63,024 nt of DNA, taken from the NCBI GenBank assembly GCA_005223125.1, contig NJBH01000021.1:1-63024 (forward strand), given 5' to 3'. Below the pieces are notes generated by a model, which was given only the letters and a program-made list of their open reading frames with translations, was not told where the DNA came from and searched no databases. Positions 10,712-20,648 of this stretch are shown here, piece after piece. Source of the stretch: Promethearchaeota archaeon Loki_b32 (GTDB lineage Archaea; Asgardarchaeota; Lokiarchaeia; Sigyniarchaeales; SOKP01). A program made the position numbers and the translations under genes. Numbering within the stretch: the stretch's first letter is position 1; every line of letters begins with the position of its first letter.

Positions 10712-11866
10712 ATGTATCTAGGCGGTTTAATACGAAAAGAATTCGGAAGAATTAGATCAGATAAGAGAACATTAATTTTATTATTTGTAATTCCAGTAAT
10801 ATTAATTTTTGTTTTTGGTCTAACTACTGGAGGAGGTCTTACAAAATTTTTTACATCGGCTATTATAACTCTTGATGATATGCCAACATATGATAACTTT
10901 CCTTCTAATTCTTCTGAATATGATGATACTTTTATATCAATAATGCAATATAATACTTCATCATGGGGATTTCATAGTTATTATAATGCAACAGATTTAG
11001 AAGAATATGATAATGCATTCCAGAATTGTTATGATATTTTAAGAAGTGGTGATATAGATATAATCATTGTTTTACCAAGAAATTTTTCAGAATCAGTGGA
11101 AAATAAAACTAATCCTGTTCTGATTTATCACATCGATGCATCTGATCCTGCTGCAATAACGGCAATTGAAGTTGCTATTCAAGAACCTATCGCTCTATTT
11201 AGAGCAGAAACAGATATGATTGCCAATTTTACAATTATGGTTCCATATTTAGAATTTGACGTCCCATTTTGGGAATCAGCAATTTTAAATTATGCACTCC
11301 CTTTAATCTTACCTATAATAATTCTTGGAACAACTATGAACTTAACCTCGCTTTCAATAGTCTCTGAAGGTCCACTTCCTCGAATGCTTATAACTCCAAC
11401 TGCTAAAAGAGAGATAATATTGAGTAAATTAATTGCTAATTCTGTAATTATGTTGCTTCAATCAACAGAGATTTTTGTATTAACTGCATTTTTTGGATTA
11501 TACAGTTTGGGGTCATTGTTTTATTTCTTTTTAGTTTTAATTATGATTGGCTTTAGTGGAATCTGTATTGGGTTATTTATTTCTGCATTAAGCCCGACAG
11601 AACAAAGCGCAAATCAAATGTATCTAATAATGTTTATAATTATAATCCTTTTTTCGGGAAGTATTCTTCCTTTAGGCGATATTGAAGGAGGAATGCAAAT
11701 TTTTATGAATATGCTCCCATTATCTAATGCTGTTCCTCTTATAACAGATATAACATTAAAAGGATTACCTCTAAATTTAACAAGTTTATTTTGGCTTAAC
11801 TTAAGTTCCTCGATTTATGTAATATTAGCTTATATCATCTACATGTTTAAGAAATTAGAGGTGTAA
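10712..11866 (+). CDS. ABC-2 type transporter permease
   Basis: 384 residues, first gene of the ABC operon. An N-terminal helix (TLILLFVIPVILIFVFGLTTGG, ~20-42) is followed by an extracytoplasmic domain of ~150 residues with several N-x-S/T sequons. Five or six helices then end the protein, including FSGICIGLFISALSPTEQSANQMY, a typical ABC-2 loop. The family forms the membrane channel of exporters for lipids, polysaccharides, drugs or proteins. The second permease follows after 1 bp, so a heterodimer is likely. Confidence 0.88.
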   Translation: MYLGGLIRKEFGRIRSDKRTLILLFVIPVILIFVFGLTTGGGLTKFFTSAIITLDDMPTYDNFPSNSSEYDDTFISIMQYNTSSWGFHSYYNATDLEEYDNAFQNCYDILRSGDIDIIIVLPRNFSESVENKTNPVLIYHIDASDPAAITAIEVAIQEPIALFRAETDMIANFTIMVPYLEFDVPFWESAILNYALPLILPIIILGTTMNLTSLSIVSEGPLPRMLITPTAKREIILSKLIANSVIMLLQSTEIFVLTAFFGLYSLGSLFYFFLVLIMIGFSGICIGLFISALSPTEQSANQMYLIMFIIIILFSGSILPLGDIEGGMQIFMNMLPLSNAVPLITDITLKGLPLNLTSLFWLNLSSSIYVILAYIIYMFKKLEV

Positions 11867-13218: not shown

Positions 13219-14211
13219 ATGGTAGATGTCAATAATTTAAATGTTAAATTTGGTGAAAAGCATGTTGTTCATGATGTAAGTTTTACTGTTGATAAAGGAG
13301 AGATTATAGGGTTATTTGGAATCTCAGGAGCAGGAAAGACAACTATAGTTAGAGTATTGACATGTCAAATTGAAAAGAAGCATTGGACCGGAAATGTTAT
13401 GGTTACTGGTTTATCTCCTGAAAAAAAAAGCAATCATTCAAAGATTCTTAGCAATATTGGTTATGTTCCACAACTTGAGCTGTTAAATTTGTATTTCGAA
13501 TTAGATCCGATGGTAAACGTTGAAGTCTTTACGTCTACATATGGAATGAATAAGAAAAGAGCAAAAGAAACAGCAGAAGAATTGTTTAAAATCCTTGATA
13601 TCCCCCGAGATACATGGAAAAAGAGAGTTGAAAAGATGAGTGGGGGAGAAAAAAAGCGATTATCAATGGCTATCGGACTAATTCATAATCCGGATGTTTT
13701 ATTCCTAGATGAGCCAACAACAGGCGTTGATGCATCCAAACGCTATGATATATTAAGTTACTTAAAGAAATTAAACCAAAAATTAAATACTACGATGTTT
13801 ATAATTACTCATGATTTAGAATCTGCATTAATTTGTGATAAAGTTGCTATTTTAAAGGACGGCCGGTTGTTAGAATTTGACACTTCTCAAAACCTGATAT
13901 CTTCCTTGCCAAGTGAAGGATTAATAGCAAGGTTTACAATTGAAGATCTAAATGAAAAATTAATTGCATTTATTAAAAAATTTCCATCTATAAGAAGAAT
14001 AATAAGGGTTGGGAATGAGGCAATTGAAGTTTTAATGGAAAATTTTGAGGAAAATCTTCCAAAATTAATTGAATATATGGTTGATAATAATATAACAATT
14101 ACCTCAATGAGTAAAGATATTGCTACTTTTAGAAGATATTTTCAAATTAGAATTCAAAAGGAGGAAGAAGAAGAAAGTAGTTTGAAGGAAGTGAAGGTGA
14201 TTCGAAAATAA
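13219..14211 (+). CDS. ABC transporter ATP-binding protein
   Basis: 330 residues with all nucleotide-binding motifs: Walker A GISGAGKTT (~34-42), Q-loop IGYVPQLE, signature MSGGEKKRLSMA (~140), Walker B VLFLDEPTTGVD and switch His in FIITHDLESAL. A C-terminal ~100-residue extension ends in an acidic and basic tail. It energises the ABC-2 permeases upstream. The ABC domain fused into the next gene is a likely second, non-identical NBD. It lies 31 bp after permease 2 and 5 bp before the fusion gene. Confidence 0.93.
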   Translation: MVDVNNLNVKFGEKHVVHDVSFTVDKGEIIGLFGISGAGKTTIVRVLTCQIEKKHWTGNVMVTGLSPEKKSNHSKILSNIGYVPQLELLNLYFELDPMVNVEVFTSTYGMNKKRAKETAEELFKILDIPRDTWKKRVEKMSGGEKKRLSMAIGLIHNPDVLFLDEPTTGVDASKRYDILSYLKKLNQKLNTTMFIITHDLESALICDKVAILKDGRLLEFDTSQNLISSLPSEGLIARFTIEDLNEKLIAFIKKFPSIRRIIRVGNEAIEVLMENFEENLPKLIEYMVDNNITITSMSKDIATFRRYFQIRIQKEEEEESSLKEVKVIRK

Positions 14212-14216
14212 TTGAG

Positions 14217-17200
14217 TTGAGTCGCAAATCAAAGCGATTGTTGAAAAATATAATAGCATTGGGCATTCTAGTTTGTGCACCTATATTATCTATAATTCTA
14301 GTGAATGTTAATTATATTGAATATATAGACGATAACGAGGTTCGATTCATTAAAGACAATGCTGTTTTTTTCACATGGACTCATCAAAATGATCATGGGT
14401 TGTTTATTGAACCTAGTTTAGATTCAAACTTCAGAGCGATTGATTCAATAAATTTCTCTTTTGTTAGCATATATTCATCCGATTTAATAAATCCAAATAA
14501 TGTTTCAAATGAACATGTAAAGGTAAATAAACCAAATATTTTTTTTGATTATATTTTTGAAAAACAAAATTCAGATGGTTCATATTCAGATATAGGTGGT
14601 TTTGGTAATATGATTTCTACACATCAAGCGATAAAAACTTTAGAGATCGCTAATGGATCTTATTTAAATAATAAAATGCAACAAGGAGATACCAATAATA
14701 TTATAAATTATTTAAAAAATTCCTTAAAAGAGGAGGGAGGGGGATTTATGTTGATTCCCTTTTTAAATGAATCTGATATAATATCTACTTCATGTGCGAT
14801 TGATTTAGCAAATACCTTAAATGGTGGTTCTGTTCTCGAAAATGATAATATTTCAATATTTATCAATTCAACTTGGGTAGATGGAAGTTACAAATTGTCG
14901 AATGATATTATGAGCATACCAACAGCAGAAACAACGTATTATGGAATTAACGCATTTTTAGGAATGAATATGACCTATACTACAGTGGAACTAAACGCTA
15001 CATGGTCATATTTTAATTTACTTTATAGTAGTATTGACGGTGGATTTTCAAATTTTATTGGTGAACCTTCTGATGTTCAATCGACATATTATGCCCTCTC
15101 GTCATTGAAAACACTAGGGCTAGGACTTCCTCCATTTTTTGATGAACAAAAGACTTTATCCTTTATATTTAGTTGTTCAAAGGTAGATGGGGGTTTTGGA
15201 TTTAGTTCAGAGCCAAGTGATAATTCAGATTTTAAATCTGGGTGGGCTGCTATGAAATCAATTGATATTCTGAAACAAGAAACCTTGACAGATAAAAATT
15301 ATTCTGATATTATTGATCTTACGATTGAGTATTACGATTGGCTTCATTTTTTTCAGGGTAAAAATTCATTATTTGGTAGTACCACTATTGAGGCAAATTA
15401 TTATGGTGTATCAGCCCTTTATAATTATAATCCTAAAATTTTTACTGAATTTATTAATAAAGAGATTATGAATAAGGAAATATTAGATAACATAATAAAA
15501 TTTGTTGATAAATGTTATAATCAATATGAGGGAGGTTTTGCTTCAACTCCAGATGAAAACGCGACTCTTTATGCAACTTTTTGTGGATTGAACATTTATA
15601 AACAACTTTTTCCCTTTACTAATAAATGGCCTGATGAGTATGAAATTGGGAATATAACAAATTATTTAGTAGATCTTCAAAATCCAGATGGCGGTTTTAG
15701 TGTAGGTCAAGATGTAGATGCTGTTTTAAGTATGTACGGAGCAGTCTATCAAATTTTCTTATATTTAATTAATTCAAATATTTCAACTATTGAAAGTACA
15801 AATTGGGCTTTAAATTCACTATATATCATTAATGGATTAAGTTATATCGATCATGTTAATCTTACTCATTGGATGAGATCGTGCCAAAATCCAGATGGTG
15901 GGTTTTCAGTATTTATAGGATTCCATAGTGATGTAATTTCAACATATTATGGTCTTGAGATATTTACTGATTTGTTACATTCTGAACCAATGTCTAAAAT
16001 AGCTGCTATTGAATTCCTAAAAAACTCACAAAATTCTGATGGCTCATTTTCAGTTTTACCCGCTCTAGGAGCTTTTCTAGACTTACCATCAAACTTTTTA
16101 ATCACATATTTTGGATCAAAAGGTCTTTATGATTATAGATTTCAACCAGAAAATATTAAGAATACCTTGAATTGGTATGCTCAATGTGTTAGTTTTAATA
16201 CAGGAGGAATTGGTGATAATCCTGGATTTGGGGGTGATTTAAGGAATGTAGCTAATGCTATTATTATAATAGATGAATTGCAATATGATCAGAGCTTTGA
16301 TTCTAAACCTTGGACCCAATTATTGACTTACATATTAATTATCGAAGGCGCTTGTATTGGTTTATTTATATTATTAAAATTATATCAAAGACTTTCAATA
16401 CCACAAAGAATAAAGCTATTATTAAGAATTGGTGGAAAACTTAATGAATCATATTTAAAAAAGTTTCCAGCTATTAATTGTGAAAATTTAAGTATCTTTG
16501 CAGGAGGAACATTAATTGTTGATTCAGTTTCTATGAATATAAAACATGGCAAAATTTTAGGAATTTTAGGAGAGAGCGGTGCTGGTAAATCAACGTTTAT
16601 TAAAGGTTTGTTGGGTATGAGAAAAACCACAGGTTTTTGTCAAATTTATGGAATGAATATGAATAAAAGAACTTCAAGAAGAATTAGACCAATATATGGT
16701 TATGTTCCACAAGATTTAGGAAAAATTTACCATAATTTTACAACCTTTGAGAATCTATTATATTTTGGAAATCAATACGGGCTTACCGAAAAAGAAATCA
16801 TGAGTAGAGCTAAAAGAATTTTAGGTAGCTTAGAAATTGAAGATAAAATGGATGAATTAGTCAAAAATCTTTCTGGTGGACAAAAAAGACGAGTTAGCAT
16901 TGCAATTGGTTTAATACATTCACCCATGTTTCTTATATTAGACGAACCTACATCAGGTTTAGATCCAGTTGTGAGAGAAAATTTGTGGTTAGTTTTTACC
17001 AAAATTAATGAACAATTTAAAACTACTTTAGTTGTAATTACTCACTATCCTGAAGAATCCCGATTTTGTAATCTTGTTGCAATATTTGGTAGAAAACGTG
17101 GAATGATAGATTTTGGACAACCAAAAACGCTTTTAGTTAATTTACCAGGAAAGGGAAGATCAATTGAGATTTCATTTACTGATGTAAAAGAAAATGTTAT

Positions 17201-17420
17201 TGCTAGACTTGAATTGATTGAAGGAATTGAGAAAGTTTTAGAAAACAAGGCAGGTATAAGTTTTTCAATATTTACTAATTCAAATCTCGATAAGGTGATT
17301 AAAAAAATAGAAGAAGAGATGGGTAAGAATTCAATTCAAGAAGTCAAACAAATAGATTCTAAAATGGAACAATATTTTCGTTATAAAGCAATGGAGGTGC
17401 CAAAAGTTGAAGAAATCTAG
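14217..17420 (+). CDS. Fusion: membrane-anchored alpha/alpha-toroid repeat ectodomain + ABC ATPase
   Basis: 1067 residues from a TTG start. An N-terminal helix (IIALGILVCAPILSIILVNV, ~12-31) is a signal anchor. Residues ~100-690 carry at least seven repeats of prenyltransferase/squalene-cyclase type (QNSDGSYSDIGGFG; KVDGGFGFS; QYEGGFASTPDENATLY; QNPDGGFSVGQDVDAV; QNPDGGFSVFIGFHSDVI; QNSDGSFSV; NPGFGGDLRNVANA). Such QNxDGGF repeats form an alpha/alpha barrel. A second helix follows (~700-725), then a complete ABC ATPase: GESGAGKST (~785), GYVPQDLG, LSGGQKRRVSIA (~885), LILDEPTSGLD and VITHYPEE. The inferred topology is an extracytoplasmic toroid bound through two helices to a cytoplasmic NBD. 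No catalytic Asp or zinc residues of true prenyltransferases were confirmed, so the toroid may bind rather than modify a ligand. Confidence 0.85.
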   Translation: MSRKSKRLLKNIIALGILVCAPILSIILVNVNYIEYIDDNEVRFIKDNAVFFTWTHQNDHGLFIEPSLDSNFRAIDSINFSFVSIYSSDLINPNNVSNEHVKVNKPNIFFDYIFEKQNSDGSYSDIGGFGNMISTHQAIKTLEIANGSYLNNKMQQGDTNNIINYLKNSLKEEGGGFMLIPFLNESDIISTSCAIDLANTLNGGSVLENDNISIFINSTWVDGSYKLSNDIMSIPTAETTYYGINAFLGMNMTYTTVELNATWSYFNLLYSSIDGGFSNFIGEPSDVQSTYYALSSLKTLGLGLPPFFDEQKTLSFIFSCSKVDGGFGFSSEPSDNSDFKSGWAAMKSIDILKQETLTDKNYSDIIDLTIEYYDWLHFFQGKNSLFGSTTIEANYYGVSALYNYNPKIFTEFINKEIMNKEILDNIIKFVDKCYNQYEGGFASTPDENATLYATFCGLNIYKQLFPFTNKWPDEYEIGNITNYLVDLQNPDGGFSVGQDVDAVLSMYGAVYQIFLYLINSNISTIESTNWALNSLYIINGLSYIDHVNLTHWMRSCQNPDGGFSVFIGFHSDVISTYYGLEIFTDLLHSEPMSKIAAIEFLKNSQNSDGSFSVLPALGAFLDLPSNFLITYFGSKGLYDYRFQPENIKNTLNWYAQCVSFNTGGIGDNPGFGGDLRNVANAIIIIDELQYDQSFDSKPWTQLLTYILIIEGACIGLFILLKLYQRLSIPQRIKLLLRIGGKLNESYLKKFPAINCENLSIFAGGTLIVDSVSMNIKHGKILGILGESGAGKSTFIKGLLGMRKTTGFCQIYGMNMNKRTSRRIRPIYGYVPQDLGKIYHNFTTFENLLYFGNQYGLTEKEIMSRAKRILGSLEIEDKMDELVKNLSGGQKRRVSIAIGLIHSPMFLILDEPTSGLDPVVRENLWLVFTKINEQFKTTLVVITHYPEESRFCNLVAIFGRKRGMIDFGQPKTLLVNLPGKGRSIEISFTDVKENVIARLELIEGIEKVLENKAGISFSIFTNSNLDKVIKKIEEEMGKNSIQEVKQIDSKMEQYFRYKAMEVPKVEEI

Positions 17421-19161
17421 TATTTCAAAGAAAACTAGTACATTGAAGAAATCTAGAAACATCGAATTAGAACGTCTTAGATTAAAAATTTTAGATGCAG
17501 TTAGATTTTCCAAACGCTTTTGGATGACTTATAGGGAACACACATTTGGAATTGCATCAATTCTAAATTTAATTTATAAAAAATCCTTTTTCGAAGTATT
17601 GTTTTTTACTAACAAAGATGTAATGGGCAGGGGTGTACCTTTATTAAAAATTAACACTCCACTCTTAGATGAAATTGATTTCAATGAAATTATCGTTGAA
17701 CCTGATTTTGATGAGGATGGGCTTGTTAGTCCTAAAAAGATTATTGAACGTATGAGGAAACTCATTATAAATGAATTTCAAAAACATATAATGATACTAA
17801 ACAAAGAAGTAGAATTATTAGATGAAAGATTTGAAAATAACATAATTGAGAACAATCCTTACTATAGAGAGATTAGATTTTCTTTTCCTCATTTTGATAT
17901 AGAATTGAAAGTAAATTTCGAAAAATACCCTCTCTTACCATCGGTTTCTTTTTCAAGAACACTTTTAAAAATCATAGGTGAAAGAGAATTTAATAAGGAG
18001 GATATTATTAAAAATTGGAATGAGCTAAATCCTCCTCACATCTATCAATTAATCGAGAAAGTATGTAATATTGTTGCAAGCCATCTAAAATTGGACAAAT
18101 TATCCAATAATTCCCAACACTTAGTATTAAAAAATGTATCTATAGAGAATGGAATACAGAATATCTCTTTTAAGATTCATCGAGGAATATCATTAGGAAT
18201 ACTTTATGATGAAGAACAGTTATCTGATGTAGATCATAAATATGATTTATTTTATCTATTCTGGGCAATTTCTGGAAATTATGCTGATTTTTCAGGGAAA
18301 ATTGAGATTTTTGGAAAAGAAGTTCAATTTTTAAATAAAAAAGATTTAGCAAAAATAGTTATCTTGCCTGAAGCGTATGAATCAAAAATAATAAATATGA
18401 AAGTTAAGAAAGCAATTAAATATAAAATAAACATCAAGGAAATTCAAAAATCTAAAAAAAATAAACTGCAATTACTATTAAAAACTGCTGGTTTTGTACC
18501 AAAAATTGATGAAATAATGGGAGAAATATTTGTAAGACCTTCAAAGAGAATTATCTATAGAAAAACCAATATTAAAAATGCTTTAGAAGTTACTGGTTTG
18601 TCATTAAAGAAGAATCAAAAATGTTCCGAATTGAACCATTTAGATTTCCTCTTATTTTCAATTGCTAGAGCTTTAGTAAAAGTTCCCTCAATAATTATGT
18701 TCTTTATTCCCTTTGAAATATTAGATCGATTAGAATATGAAAAATTTAATAATTATATGCAAAAAATTAAAGAGAAGTTCCATGTGATTTTAATCTTTCA
18801 TGCTCCAGAAGGAATAATATCTAACTGCGATAATATATTAACTATTGGTAAAGAAGAATCAAAAATTGGAACATTCAATAAATTAATCGAAGAATTACCT
18901 CAATCAGGTGAAATTATTACAATACAATTAAATAATCCTGATAAAAGACTTATTAAAACCCTCTACAAATTTGATGAAATCGCTAAGATTCAAGAAGAAA
19001 GAAAAAATGAAAAATATAAAATATTTCTGAAAGACGACCCTAACAAGATGATAATTCGATTAACAAAATTATTTGGACAATATCTTTTCAGCTTTAAAAA
19101 GTATAAAGCATCATTAGAAGATTATAAAGAATTTTTTGAAAAAAGGTATAAATATAATTAA
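17407..19161 (+). CDS. Degenerate ABC-like protein with possible E2/RWD-like segment
   Basis: 584 residues from a TTG overlapping the previous gene by 14 bp. The second half (~235-520) follows the layout of an ABC ATPase (HRGISLGILYDEEQL where Walker A should be; DFLLFSIARALVKVPSII where signature and Walker B should be; VILIFHAPEGI for the H-loop). It lacks GxxGxGKS/T, LSGGQ and DE, so ATP hydrolysis is unlikely. Before it, ~152-220 reads IRFSFPHFDIELKVNFEKYP.LPSVSF...KNWNELNPPHIYQLIEKV, the strand, YP-loop, Trp and helix order of the UBC/RWD fold, with no evident catalytic Cys. The fold assignment is inference. Its place in the operon suggests a structural or regulatory subunit. Confidence 0.65.
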   Translation: MKKSSISKKTSTLKKSRNIELERLRLKILDAVRFSKRFWMTYREHTFGIASILNLIYKKSFFEVLFFTNKDVMGRGVPLLKINTPLLDEIDFNEIIVEPDFDEDGLVSPKKIIERMRKLIINEFQKHIMILNKEVELLDERFENNIIENNPYYREIRFSFPHFDIELKVNFEKYPLLPSVSFSRTLLKIIGEREFNKEDIIKNWNELNPPHIYQLIEKVCNIVASHLKLDKLSNNSQHLVLKNVSIENGIQNISFKIHRGISLGILYDEEQLSDVDHKYDLFYLFWAISGNYADFSGKIEIFGKEVQFLNKKDLAKIVILPEAYESKIINMKVKKAIKYKINIKEIQKSKKNKLQLLLKTAGFVPKIDEIMGEIFVRPSKRIIYRKTNIKNALEVTGLSLKKNQKCSELNHLDFLLFSIARALVKVPSIIMFFIPFEILDRLEYEKFNNYMQKIKEKFHVILIFHAPEGIISNCDNILTIGKEESKIGTFNKLIEELPQSGEIITIQLNNPDKRLIKTLYKFDEIAKIQEERKNEKYKIFLKDDPNKMIIRLTKLFGQYLFSFKKYKASLEDYKEFFEKRYKYN

Positions 19162-19184: not shown

Positions 19185-19988
19185 ATGTTAAAAAGTATTT
19201 ATTTCTTGAATGAGAATGGAATTTTATTATATTCCAAAAATTTTATGGAAAAAAAATATGATGAAGATATATTAATAGGCTTTTTCTCATCAATCGTCAA
19301 TTTTAGCAGAGAAGCACTAGGAAGTATAGTTAAAAATATTGATCTCGGGGAAAGTAATAAACTCATTTTAATTCCTCATTCAGAAGAACCAATTCTCGTA
19401 GCTGCTGTTGTAGACGCTAGCGATAATAACATTTTGGTAACATCAATTGTTACTAATACAATGCAAGATTTCGTTGATTCTTACTCTCCGGACTATGACC
19501 CTGAAACAATATTCCCTGATGAAATGGAAAGCAAAATTAATAATAATTTAAAAGGGAAAGTTATGCATTCTCCAATGATTAGAATATTATTATCATGGTT
19601 GATTGTTGGATCTATATCCTATTTTTTAATTCTTTTAAGTATAAATGCAACCTATTTCATATATGATTATTATAATTTAGGGCAATTCATTACTCAAGAG
19701 CAATTATTCACAAGATTCATGCCAATTTTAATATTATTATCAACAGTAAATATTATTATATTATTTTTACCTCCAAACCTTATTTTCGGTTTTCTGGCTC
19801 CCAATTGGAAAATTGCCCTTTTGAATTCTTTCATTTTTTTAGGTGTAACAATTACATTGTATTTCTATTCTATAGAACCTAATTTCGCTTATATTATTAT
19901 TGGACAATTACCATTGACGTTAATATTTTCTCTATTTTTTCTCTTTATTGGTATAAGATATTCATCAAAAATGTTCTTAAAAAGATAA
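19185..19988 (+). CDS. Possible longin-domain protein with four membrane helices
   Basis: 267 residues, last gene of the ABC operon, 23 bp after the previous stop. Residues 1-115 look like a longin/roadblock-type sensor: MLKSIYFLNENGILLYSKNF, then DILIGFFSSIVNFSREAL, then IVLVAAVVD-like strands. Asgard genomes carry many such domains next to small GTPases. Residues ~130-265 contain four hydrophobic helices separated by short loops. No GTPase is encoded nearby. It may place a trafficking-type domain at the membrane beside the transporter. The longin fold is inferred by eye and needs a profile search. Confidence 0.6.
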   Translation: MLKSIYFLNENGILLYSKNFMEKKYDEDILIGFFSSIVNFSREALGSIVKNIDLGESNKLILIPHSEEPILVAAVVDASDNNILVTSIVTNTMQDFVDSYSPDYDPETIFPDEMESKINNNLKGKVMHSPMIRILLSWLIVGSISYFLILLSINATYFIYDYYNLGQFITQEQLFTRFMPILILLSTVNIIILFLPPNLIFGFLAPNWKIALLNSFIFLGVTITLYFYSIEPNFAYIIIGQLPLTLIFSLFFLFIGIRYSSKMFLKR

Positions 19989-20108: not shown

Positions 20109-20648
20109 ATGAGCATTATTAAAAAAACAAATAAGATTCAAGTAATATGCCCTATCTGTAAGACAAGAGACCTCGTTGGCATATCGCGATCAAGCTTAAA
20201 TAGAAACTCTCAATTAACCACGATTTCAATCCAAAAAGGACTTATCTGCCCTCATCACTTTCAGTTTTTCATGGACAATCAGTTTCAAATTAGAGGATAT
20301 CAGAAAGTTGATTTGGAATTAAACCAAGAAAACTCTAAAATTTTAACGAATGGTGTAAAAGCTTTTAAACAAAATGAGAATCAAAGTAAGAATCTTTTTG
20401 AAAAACTAATAATCGATGATGATATTGTTAAATACCAACCATTAAATCGGAATAATATTAAGGAAAGGACTAATTCAACACCAGAAAGGATATCAAAAAG
20501 GAAAAAAATGACTCTAAAGGAAATTTATGAAGAATTCTGGGAATTCGTTGATGATGAAAATGAATTTTTTCATGAATTTATAATTAAAGATAATAGACGT
20601 CAAAAATCTTCAATAAATTCTAACAGAAATGAATATATAACTGTCTAA
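20109..20648 (+). CDS. Small zinc-finger-like protein with charged tail
   Basis: 179 residues. The N-terminal 70 residues contain a probable metal site: CPICKTRDLVGISRSSL, then ICPHHFQFFMDNQFQIRGY, four Cys/His-rich ligand positions with an FxxFxDxQFxxRGY motif. The remainder is a charged, probably flexible tail ending in acidic and basic clusters (FVDDENEFFHEF; KDNRRQKSS). No membrane segment. It lies 120 bp after the ABC operon in the same direction and may or may not belong to it. Family not recognised. Confidence 0.6.
   Translation: MSIIKKTNKIQVICPICKTRDLVGISRSSLNRNSQLTTISIQKGLICPHHFQFFMDNQFQIRGYQKVDLELNQENSKILTNGVKAFKQNENQSKNLFEKLIIDDDIVKYQPLNRNNIKERTNSTPERISKRKKMTLKEIYEEFWEFVDDENEFFHEFIIKDNRRQKSSINSNRNEYITV

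Follow-up and report, generated by a model that had tools for sequence, protein, structure and literature searches.

An ABC ATPase fused to a putative extracytoplasmic toroid in a six-gene operon of Lokiarchaeia

Introduction

The α/α toroids of prenyltransferases and terpene cyclases and the ATPase subunits of ABC transporters are both familiar, and the question raised by this locus is whether one archaeal protein really joins the two, where its parts lie relative to the membrane and what such a protein might do. The protein, called TOR here, is encoded in a 63,024-nucleotide stretch of DNA (the window) from Promethearchaeota archaeon Loki_b32. An earlier note, made from the sequence alone, had proposed an N-terminal anchor, at least seven repeats, a second helix and a full ABC ATPase in a single polypeptide, placed in an operon with transporter genes. 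In the following sections the fusion, its operon, the toroid and the two accessory proteins are described, and the possible functions are weighed. Coordinates given without a locus handle are those of the window, and the six operon genes with their domains lie on the plus strand.

The Fusion Gene and Its Distribution

TOR (14217..17420) is a single open frame of 1067 amino acids with a TTG start and without internal stops. It begins with an N-terminal transmembrane segment (TM), continues with about 600 residues of prenyltransferase-type α/α repeats and, after another TM, ends in an intact ABC ATPase. In Pfam, PF00432 (Prenyltrans) matches three stretches (E 2.5e-36; 126.1 bits against a gathering score of 26.5) and PF00005 (ABC_tran) matches residues 769-913 (E 2.8e-27). 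Both domains and their motifs were found, and the architecture proposed in the earlier note is therefore upheld.

The source is only a metagenome-assembled genome (MAG), which speaks for an artefact of gene merging, assembly or frameshift. This explanation was rejected and is practically excluded, because the identical fusion occurs in dozens of independent MAGs and the frame is single and free of stops. Both Pfam domains are present in 26/26 aligned relatives (36-90% identity), the homologues are full-length frames of >1000 amino acids from several families and orders of the class, and the fusion is retained while toroid identity falls from 88% to about 30%. Absence of the fusion from relatives, which had been named as a possible refutation, was not encountered: all relatives examined carry it.

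A toroid profile detected TOR in 47 of the 228 genomes of the phylum, all of them in the class of the window and spread over several families and orders; within the genus of the source, 8 of 19 genomes have it. When more distant genomes were added, with non-Asgard organisms lightly sampled, no match was obtained at E<=1e-20. The ABC-fusion toroids form one clade (support 100/100) apart from two other Asgard double-toroid groups, and this single clade is consistent with one fusion event. Searches of papers for another ABC ATPase with its own extracytoplasmic toroid found none, and none was found in the genomes searched either; the text available from a published survey of Asgard transporters (PMC7997004) does not mention the architecture. 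ABC-2 transporters and toroids are known kinds of protein, and it is the architecture of TOR together with its set of partners that is undescribed in the searched literature.

The Six-Gene Operon

The operon has the order P1, P2, A1, TOR, DEG and LON, with gaps of 2, 32, 6, -13 and 24 nt. P1, the first gene (10712..11866, 384 amino acids), and P2 (11868..13187, 439 amino acids) encode ABC-2 permeases, as both match PF12698 above the cut-off (E 1.5e-26 and 2.4e-27) and adjoin genes for nucleotide-binding domains (NBDs). A1 (13219..14211, 330 amino acids) is a cytoplasmic, DrrA-type ABC ATPase (PF00005, E 2.6e-24) with the complete motifs GISGAGKT (Walker A), MSGG and VLFLDEP. The NBD of TOR (16452..17417), predicted to be cytoplasmic and having a DrrA-type C-terminal extension, carries GESGAGKST (Walker A), LSGGQ, DEPTSGLD and the H-loop THYPEE, the residues of which are invariant or nearly so across 26 relatives. 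Walker A, signature, Walker B and H-loop are all present in A1 and in the TOR NBD. A1 matches the drrA model TIGR01188 at E 5.8e-58, but neither A1 (196.5 bits) nor TOR (158.2 bits) reaches the curated cut-off of 312 for this subfamily. In Foldseek, the TOR NBD is matched to NosF of NosDFY, TM_1403 and ABCA4. Since two permeases lie beside two complete NBDs, a heteromeric 2+2 set, accompanied by a pseudo-ATPase, is the probable composition.

TOR, DEG and LON occur in 47, 47 and 42 of the 228 genomes, respectively, and their co-occurrence is highly significant (Fisher ~1e-40). DEG (E<=1e-12) is accompanied by TOR in 45 of its 47 genomes, and full-length LON (E<1e-70) is confined to TOR carriers in all 42. 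TOR carriers that lack DEG or LON are mostly explained by contig ends, and near-complete congeners without TOR are also without DEG and full-length LON. The six-gene order is preserved at nearly all loci, with the exception of L075 (G052), where the order is altered: DEG is inverted and LON lies at another place. From this distribution, the operon appears to be gained and lost as a unit. Conservation of the gene order across Asgard archaea had been suggested as a check; the order is conserved within the Lokiarchaeial class and not across Asgard. As for the content of the operon, the two ABC-2 permeases, the second ATPase, the degenerate ABC subunit and the membrane protein claimed previously are all there, while the longin fold assigned to the last is unsupported by Pfam or PDB profiles. 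A promoter and terminator scan gave no excess over shuffled sequences, and a plasmid comparison gave no match.

Downstream, window positions 20109-20648 encode a small protein with a zinc-ribbon-like start (CPxC...CPHH). In many relatives its homologues adjoin the operon, before P1 or after LON, and the gene may therefore be a seventh member of the set that changes its place.

Membrane Topology and the Toroid

Hydropathy gives two strong TMs in TOR, one before the toroid (TM1, residues 11-29, 14247..14303, N-terminus predicted inside) and one after it (TM2, residues 702-720, 16320..16376), and no segment of the toroid is equally hydrophobic. The mean net flank charges are +4.8 (N) and -1.5 (C) for TM1, over 13 relatives, and -2.3 (N) and +3.9 (C) for TM2, over 26 relatives. 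Because of these charges, the toroid is placed outside, and the N-terminus and the NBD inside, in the predicted topology; the extracytoplasmic position claimed for the toroid before is thereby backed. N-glycosylation sequons were also tried as topology evidence and were discarded: the toroid has the higher density, yet both it and the NBD contain more of them than shuffled sequences do.

The predicted extracytoplasmic toroid region comprises residues ~56-667 (14382..16217) and is supported by PF00432, a repeat HMM of the family, a match to the RabGGTase β profile and an AlphaFold2 (AF2) model. The repeat HMM finds 9 copies in TOR (domain E<=0.01) and 7-10 in relatives, and none in either shuffled toroids or NBDs. 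By eye, QNxDGGF-type glycines recur at a spacing of about 55 residues at G61, 121, 175, 223, 275, 325, 387, 440, 492, 561, 609 and 664, that is, at 12 positions, three of them degenerate. Twelve positions equal 2 x 6 hairpins, which suggests two six-hairpin toroids.

In a PDB profile search, the toroid matches RabGGTase β at E 5.6e-26 and squalene cyclases more weakly. The AF2 model shows helical hairpins, confident for most of residues 130-560, and is weak overall (mean pLDDT 56.5, pTM 0.38). Foldseek with the toroid model also returned RabGGTase β first, with poor global superposition (rmsd ~19 Å). A test for an α6/α6 ring found the predicted hairpin array and no properly closed ring in this low-confidence model. 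Membership of the toroid in the repeat family is therefore sure, and the closed ring is predicted only. A structure prediction lacking an α/α toroid had been named as a refutation, and this refutation failed: the prediction is an α-hairpin array with RabGGTase β as top PDB match, within the limit that the modelled ring is not properly closed.

As to catalysis, a check of conserved columns in the relatives found no histidine conserved at >=90% anywhere in the toroid. The histidine of the prenyltransferase zinc site falls on S575 in the aligned repeat, and the Asp/Cys/His zinc ligands are not conserved. The DxDD motif of class II terpene/squalene cyclases is absent as a conserved motif; D499 is conserved, and the positions following it are not D. 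Invariant residues down to 30% identity are E65, W375, C433, W653, C657, D667 and D674. Because the zinc site and DxDD are unconserved, a binding or mechanical toroid appears likelier than a known enzyme.

The Accessory Proteins DEG and LON

DEG (17407..19161, 584 amino acids) overlaps the end of TOR and is by its sequence a pseudo-ABC ATPase. Its C-terminal half matches ABC ATPases in the PDB (E 3.1e-5), and Walker A, signature and Walker B are present in none of 18/18 DEG homologues. Residues ~113-235 (17743..18111) resemble the E2-fold (UBC/RWD) superfamily. The N-terminal profile of DEG (A6/d2) matches Asgard proteins in which UBC/RWD domains in tandem are combined with a RING-like finger (L154, 6.5e-28; L156, 1.4e-22; L153, 3.6e-22) and, in the genome from which the window comes, a JAB protein (L157, 4.8e-11). 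Above the Pfam cut-off, RWD is found in L154 and L156 and UQ_con in L153 and L154. In such proteins it is mostly the C-terminal repeat that these Pfam models recognize, while the DEG profile matches best on the first repeats and more weakly on the C-terminal one (domain E 0.0007-0.03). The direct Pfam RWD match in a DEG homologue (that of L075) is only sub-threshold. The domain is hence assigned to the UBC/RWD superfamily by transitivity within the repeat family, together with this sub-threshold match. The list of conserved columns contains no conserved cysteine in the domain, and hence no catalytic E2 cysteine. The structure prediction of DEG is weak (pLDDT 52), so the E2-fold was found through profiles instead; fold matches of the model include ABCA exporters. 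The first 90 residues were considered as a second UBC-like domain and dropped (E 0.09 to L154, no profile-profile match).

The RING-type proteins (L153, L154, L155, L156, L159 and L160) make up an Asgard family in which as many as three or four UBC/RWD-like domains stand in tandem, with a cysteine/histidine RING-like finger at the C-terminus. In the JAB protein (L157:528-1202, own genome, contig C5) a UBC/RWD-like domain is joined to a Prok-JAB (JAMM) domain.

LON (19185..19988, 267 amino acids) has a longin-like N-terminal domain (residues ~1-118) and about 4 TMs according to its family alignment (A5); no Pfam or PDB profile of the longin or roadblock families matches it. A protein of 254 amino acids (L158:480-1241, G054) combines a LON-type N-terminal domain (E 4e-13) with a DEG-type UBC/RWD domain (E 2e-17), and this fusion links DEG and LON as partners. 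Toroid-free paralogous systems were sought by way of LON and rejected, as LON paralogues sit in unrelated contexts. At L134, L135 and L136, longin-like 4-TM paralogues of the LON type are arranged as tandem pairs away from any ABC operon.

Other Asgard Toroid Proteins

In other Asgard classes, an anchored double toroid (~780 amino acids) lies beside a fusion of toroid, 7TM_transglut and ATPgrasp_ST (~1390 amino acids). This pair is found at L113:6113-13683 and also at L112, L114, L115 and L125, and partially at L116 and L124; at L113 a transglutaminase-like protein follows it. The 7TM part matches RloB. RloB of Pseudomonas is an inactive transglutaminase-7TM protein and the partner of the ATP-grasp protein RloC (PMC12239564). 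By these matches, the L113-type pair is probably a Rlo-like system with toroids in place of the inactive transglutaminase.

Furthermore, the window's own genome encodes a toroid protein of 365 amino acids with TM anchors at both ends (L127:9445-10539, contig C2), relatives of which are widespread in Asgard. Two proteins of 1493 and 1236 amino acids (L118:3245-7723 and L119:8784-12491) have N-terminal toroid repeats and winged-helix/PCI-like stretches with weak to moderate scores.

Proposed Mechanism and Its Alternatives

The reading that we prefer, at about an even chance of being right, is a heteromeric, type V-like ABC-2 complex in which TOR supplies one of the two ATPase subunits and, with it, a non-catalytic outer toroid. 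P1 and P2 would form the membrane core, and A1 and the TOR NBD the ATPase pair at its cytoplasmic face. The two extra TM helices of TOR would hold a double α/α toroid on the outer face as a binding module tied physically to one NBD. ATP binding and hydrolysis could then move the toroid, or the NBD pair could receive signals from it; a moved toroid might receive or release an exported substrate or act mechanically on an extracytoplasmic partner. The earlier note had suggested that the toroid may capture a hydrophobic ligand. The machine would work like NosDFY or the ABCA exporters, the toroid replacing the β-helix or the extracellular domain (ECD). DEG, presumably cytoplasmic with its E2-fold, and the membrane-bound LON would be regulators or adaptors that set when and where it works. 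What the sequence shows is the fusion, the repeats, the charge-based topology, the intact NBD motifs, the pseudo-ATPase state of DEG, the operon and the co-occurrence; the stoichiometry, the non-catalytic toroid, the mechanical coupling and the regulation by DEG and LON are inferred. The TMs flanking the toroid might be a separate module, which counts against this explanation.

An extracytoplasmic enzyme that modifies a substrate delivered by the ABC machinery, by prenyl transfer, cyclization or otherwise, would agree with the prenyltransferase β subunits and squalene cyclases as best sequence and fold matches, and the seven invariant residues could make a site; the lack of a conserved histidine, zinc ligands and DxDD described above makes it unlikely. 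A transmembrane sensor, in which a toroid ligand controls the ATPase and, via DEG and LON, signalling or membrane remodelling with little or no transport, is likewise improbable, as ABC-2 permeases and NBDs, two of each and all complete, favour transport or mechanical work. It stays alive because an outer domain is wired to an inner ATP-using enzyme in the toroid-7TM-ATP-grasp and Rlo proteins, the former with a sister toroid beside a transglutaminase, and it would suit the eukaryote-type signalling relatives of the DEG and LON domains. Least credible of the three is an ordinary ABC-2 drug or lipid exporter that acquired a surface domain of little functional weight. The NBDs are indeed DrrA-like, and in the text available from the Asgard inventory, ABC-2 exporters assigned to drug and peptide export predominate (PMC7997004); but the toroid is complete, conserved class-wide with invariant residues at 30% identity, and nearly always accompanied by DEG.

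Going beyond the preferred complex, the outer double toroid, the ABC-2 motor and the inner E2-fold/longin-like module might together be a new ATP-driven trans-envelope machine of Lokiarchaeia, acting as one signalling or cargo device, which we regard as a tentative, somewhat doubtful proposal. If true, components of the proto-eukaryotic toolkit for ubiquitin and trafficking would be linked to an archaeal ABC motor. In TOR, ATP use inside is joined covalently to a predicted binding ring outside, a connection that lends itself to testing. In these archaea, the closest to eukaryotes, the operon brings eukaryote-type domains (E2-fold, longin-like) together with a membrane machine. Moreover, the parallel with toroid-7TM-ATP-grasp proteins suggests that outer toroids may be a general Asgard route from the envelope to cytoplasmic ATP-using enzymes.

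Comparison with Known Systems

DrrAB-type exporters share with the operon NBDs that match TIGR01188 and permeases that match PF12698, but TOR and A1 stay below the drrA cut-off, and DrrAB has no toroid, E2-fold or longin-like partner. RabGGTase β and the squalene-hopene cyclases share the PF00432 repeats; unlike them, the TOR toroid is predicted to be extracytoplasmic, has about 12 repeats and does not conserve the zinc site or DxDD. In RloB/RloC and the Asgard toroid version of it, an outer binding or pseudo-enzyme domain is also linked to an inner ATP-using enzyme, which is, however, an ATP-grasp ligase and not an ABC ATPase, and the Asgard toroids there form a separate clade. The Asgard UBC/RWD-RING proteins have the UBC/RWD-like domain in common with DEG residues ~113-235, whereas DEG is without RING and its domain is carried by a pseudo-ABC ATPase.

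By analogy, NosDFY and the ABCA exporters are the nearest working systems, each with an extracytoplasmic domain coupled to an ABC-2/type V motor. NosDFY has an ABC-2 permease, a DrrA-like NBD, with NosF among the best fold matches of the TOR NBD, and, outside the cytoplasm, a repeat protein that is coupled to the ATPase. NosD is a β-helix and a separate soluble subunit, whereas the Lokiarchaeial toroid is all-α, contains no β-helix and is covalently part of the ATPase subunit, and the Lokiarchaeial operon has two different permeases and NBDs, plus a pseudo-ATPase and LON. ABCA1/4/7 are type V ABC proteins with a large extracellular domain, and both the TOR and the DEG model gave fold matches to this family; the ABCA extracellular domain, however, lies within the polypeptide of the transmembrane domains and has a fold other than the toroid.
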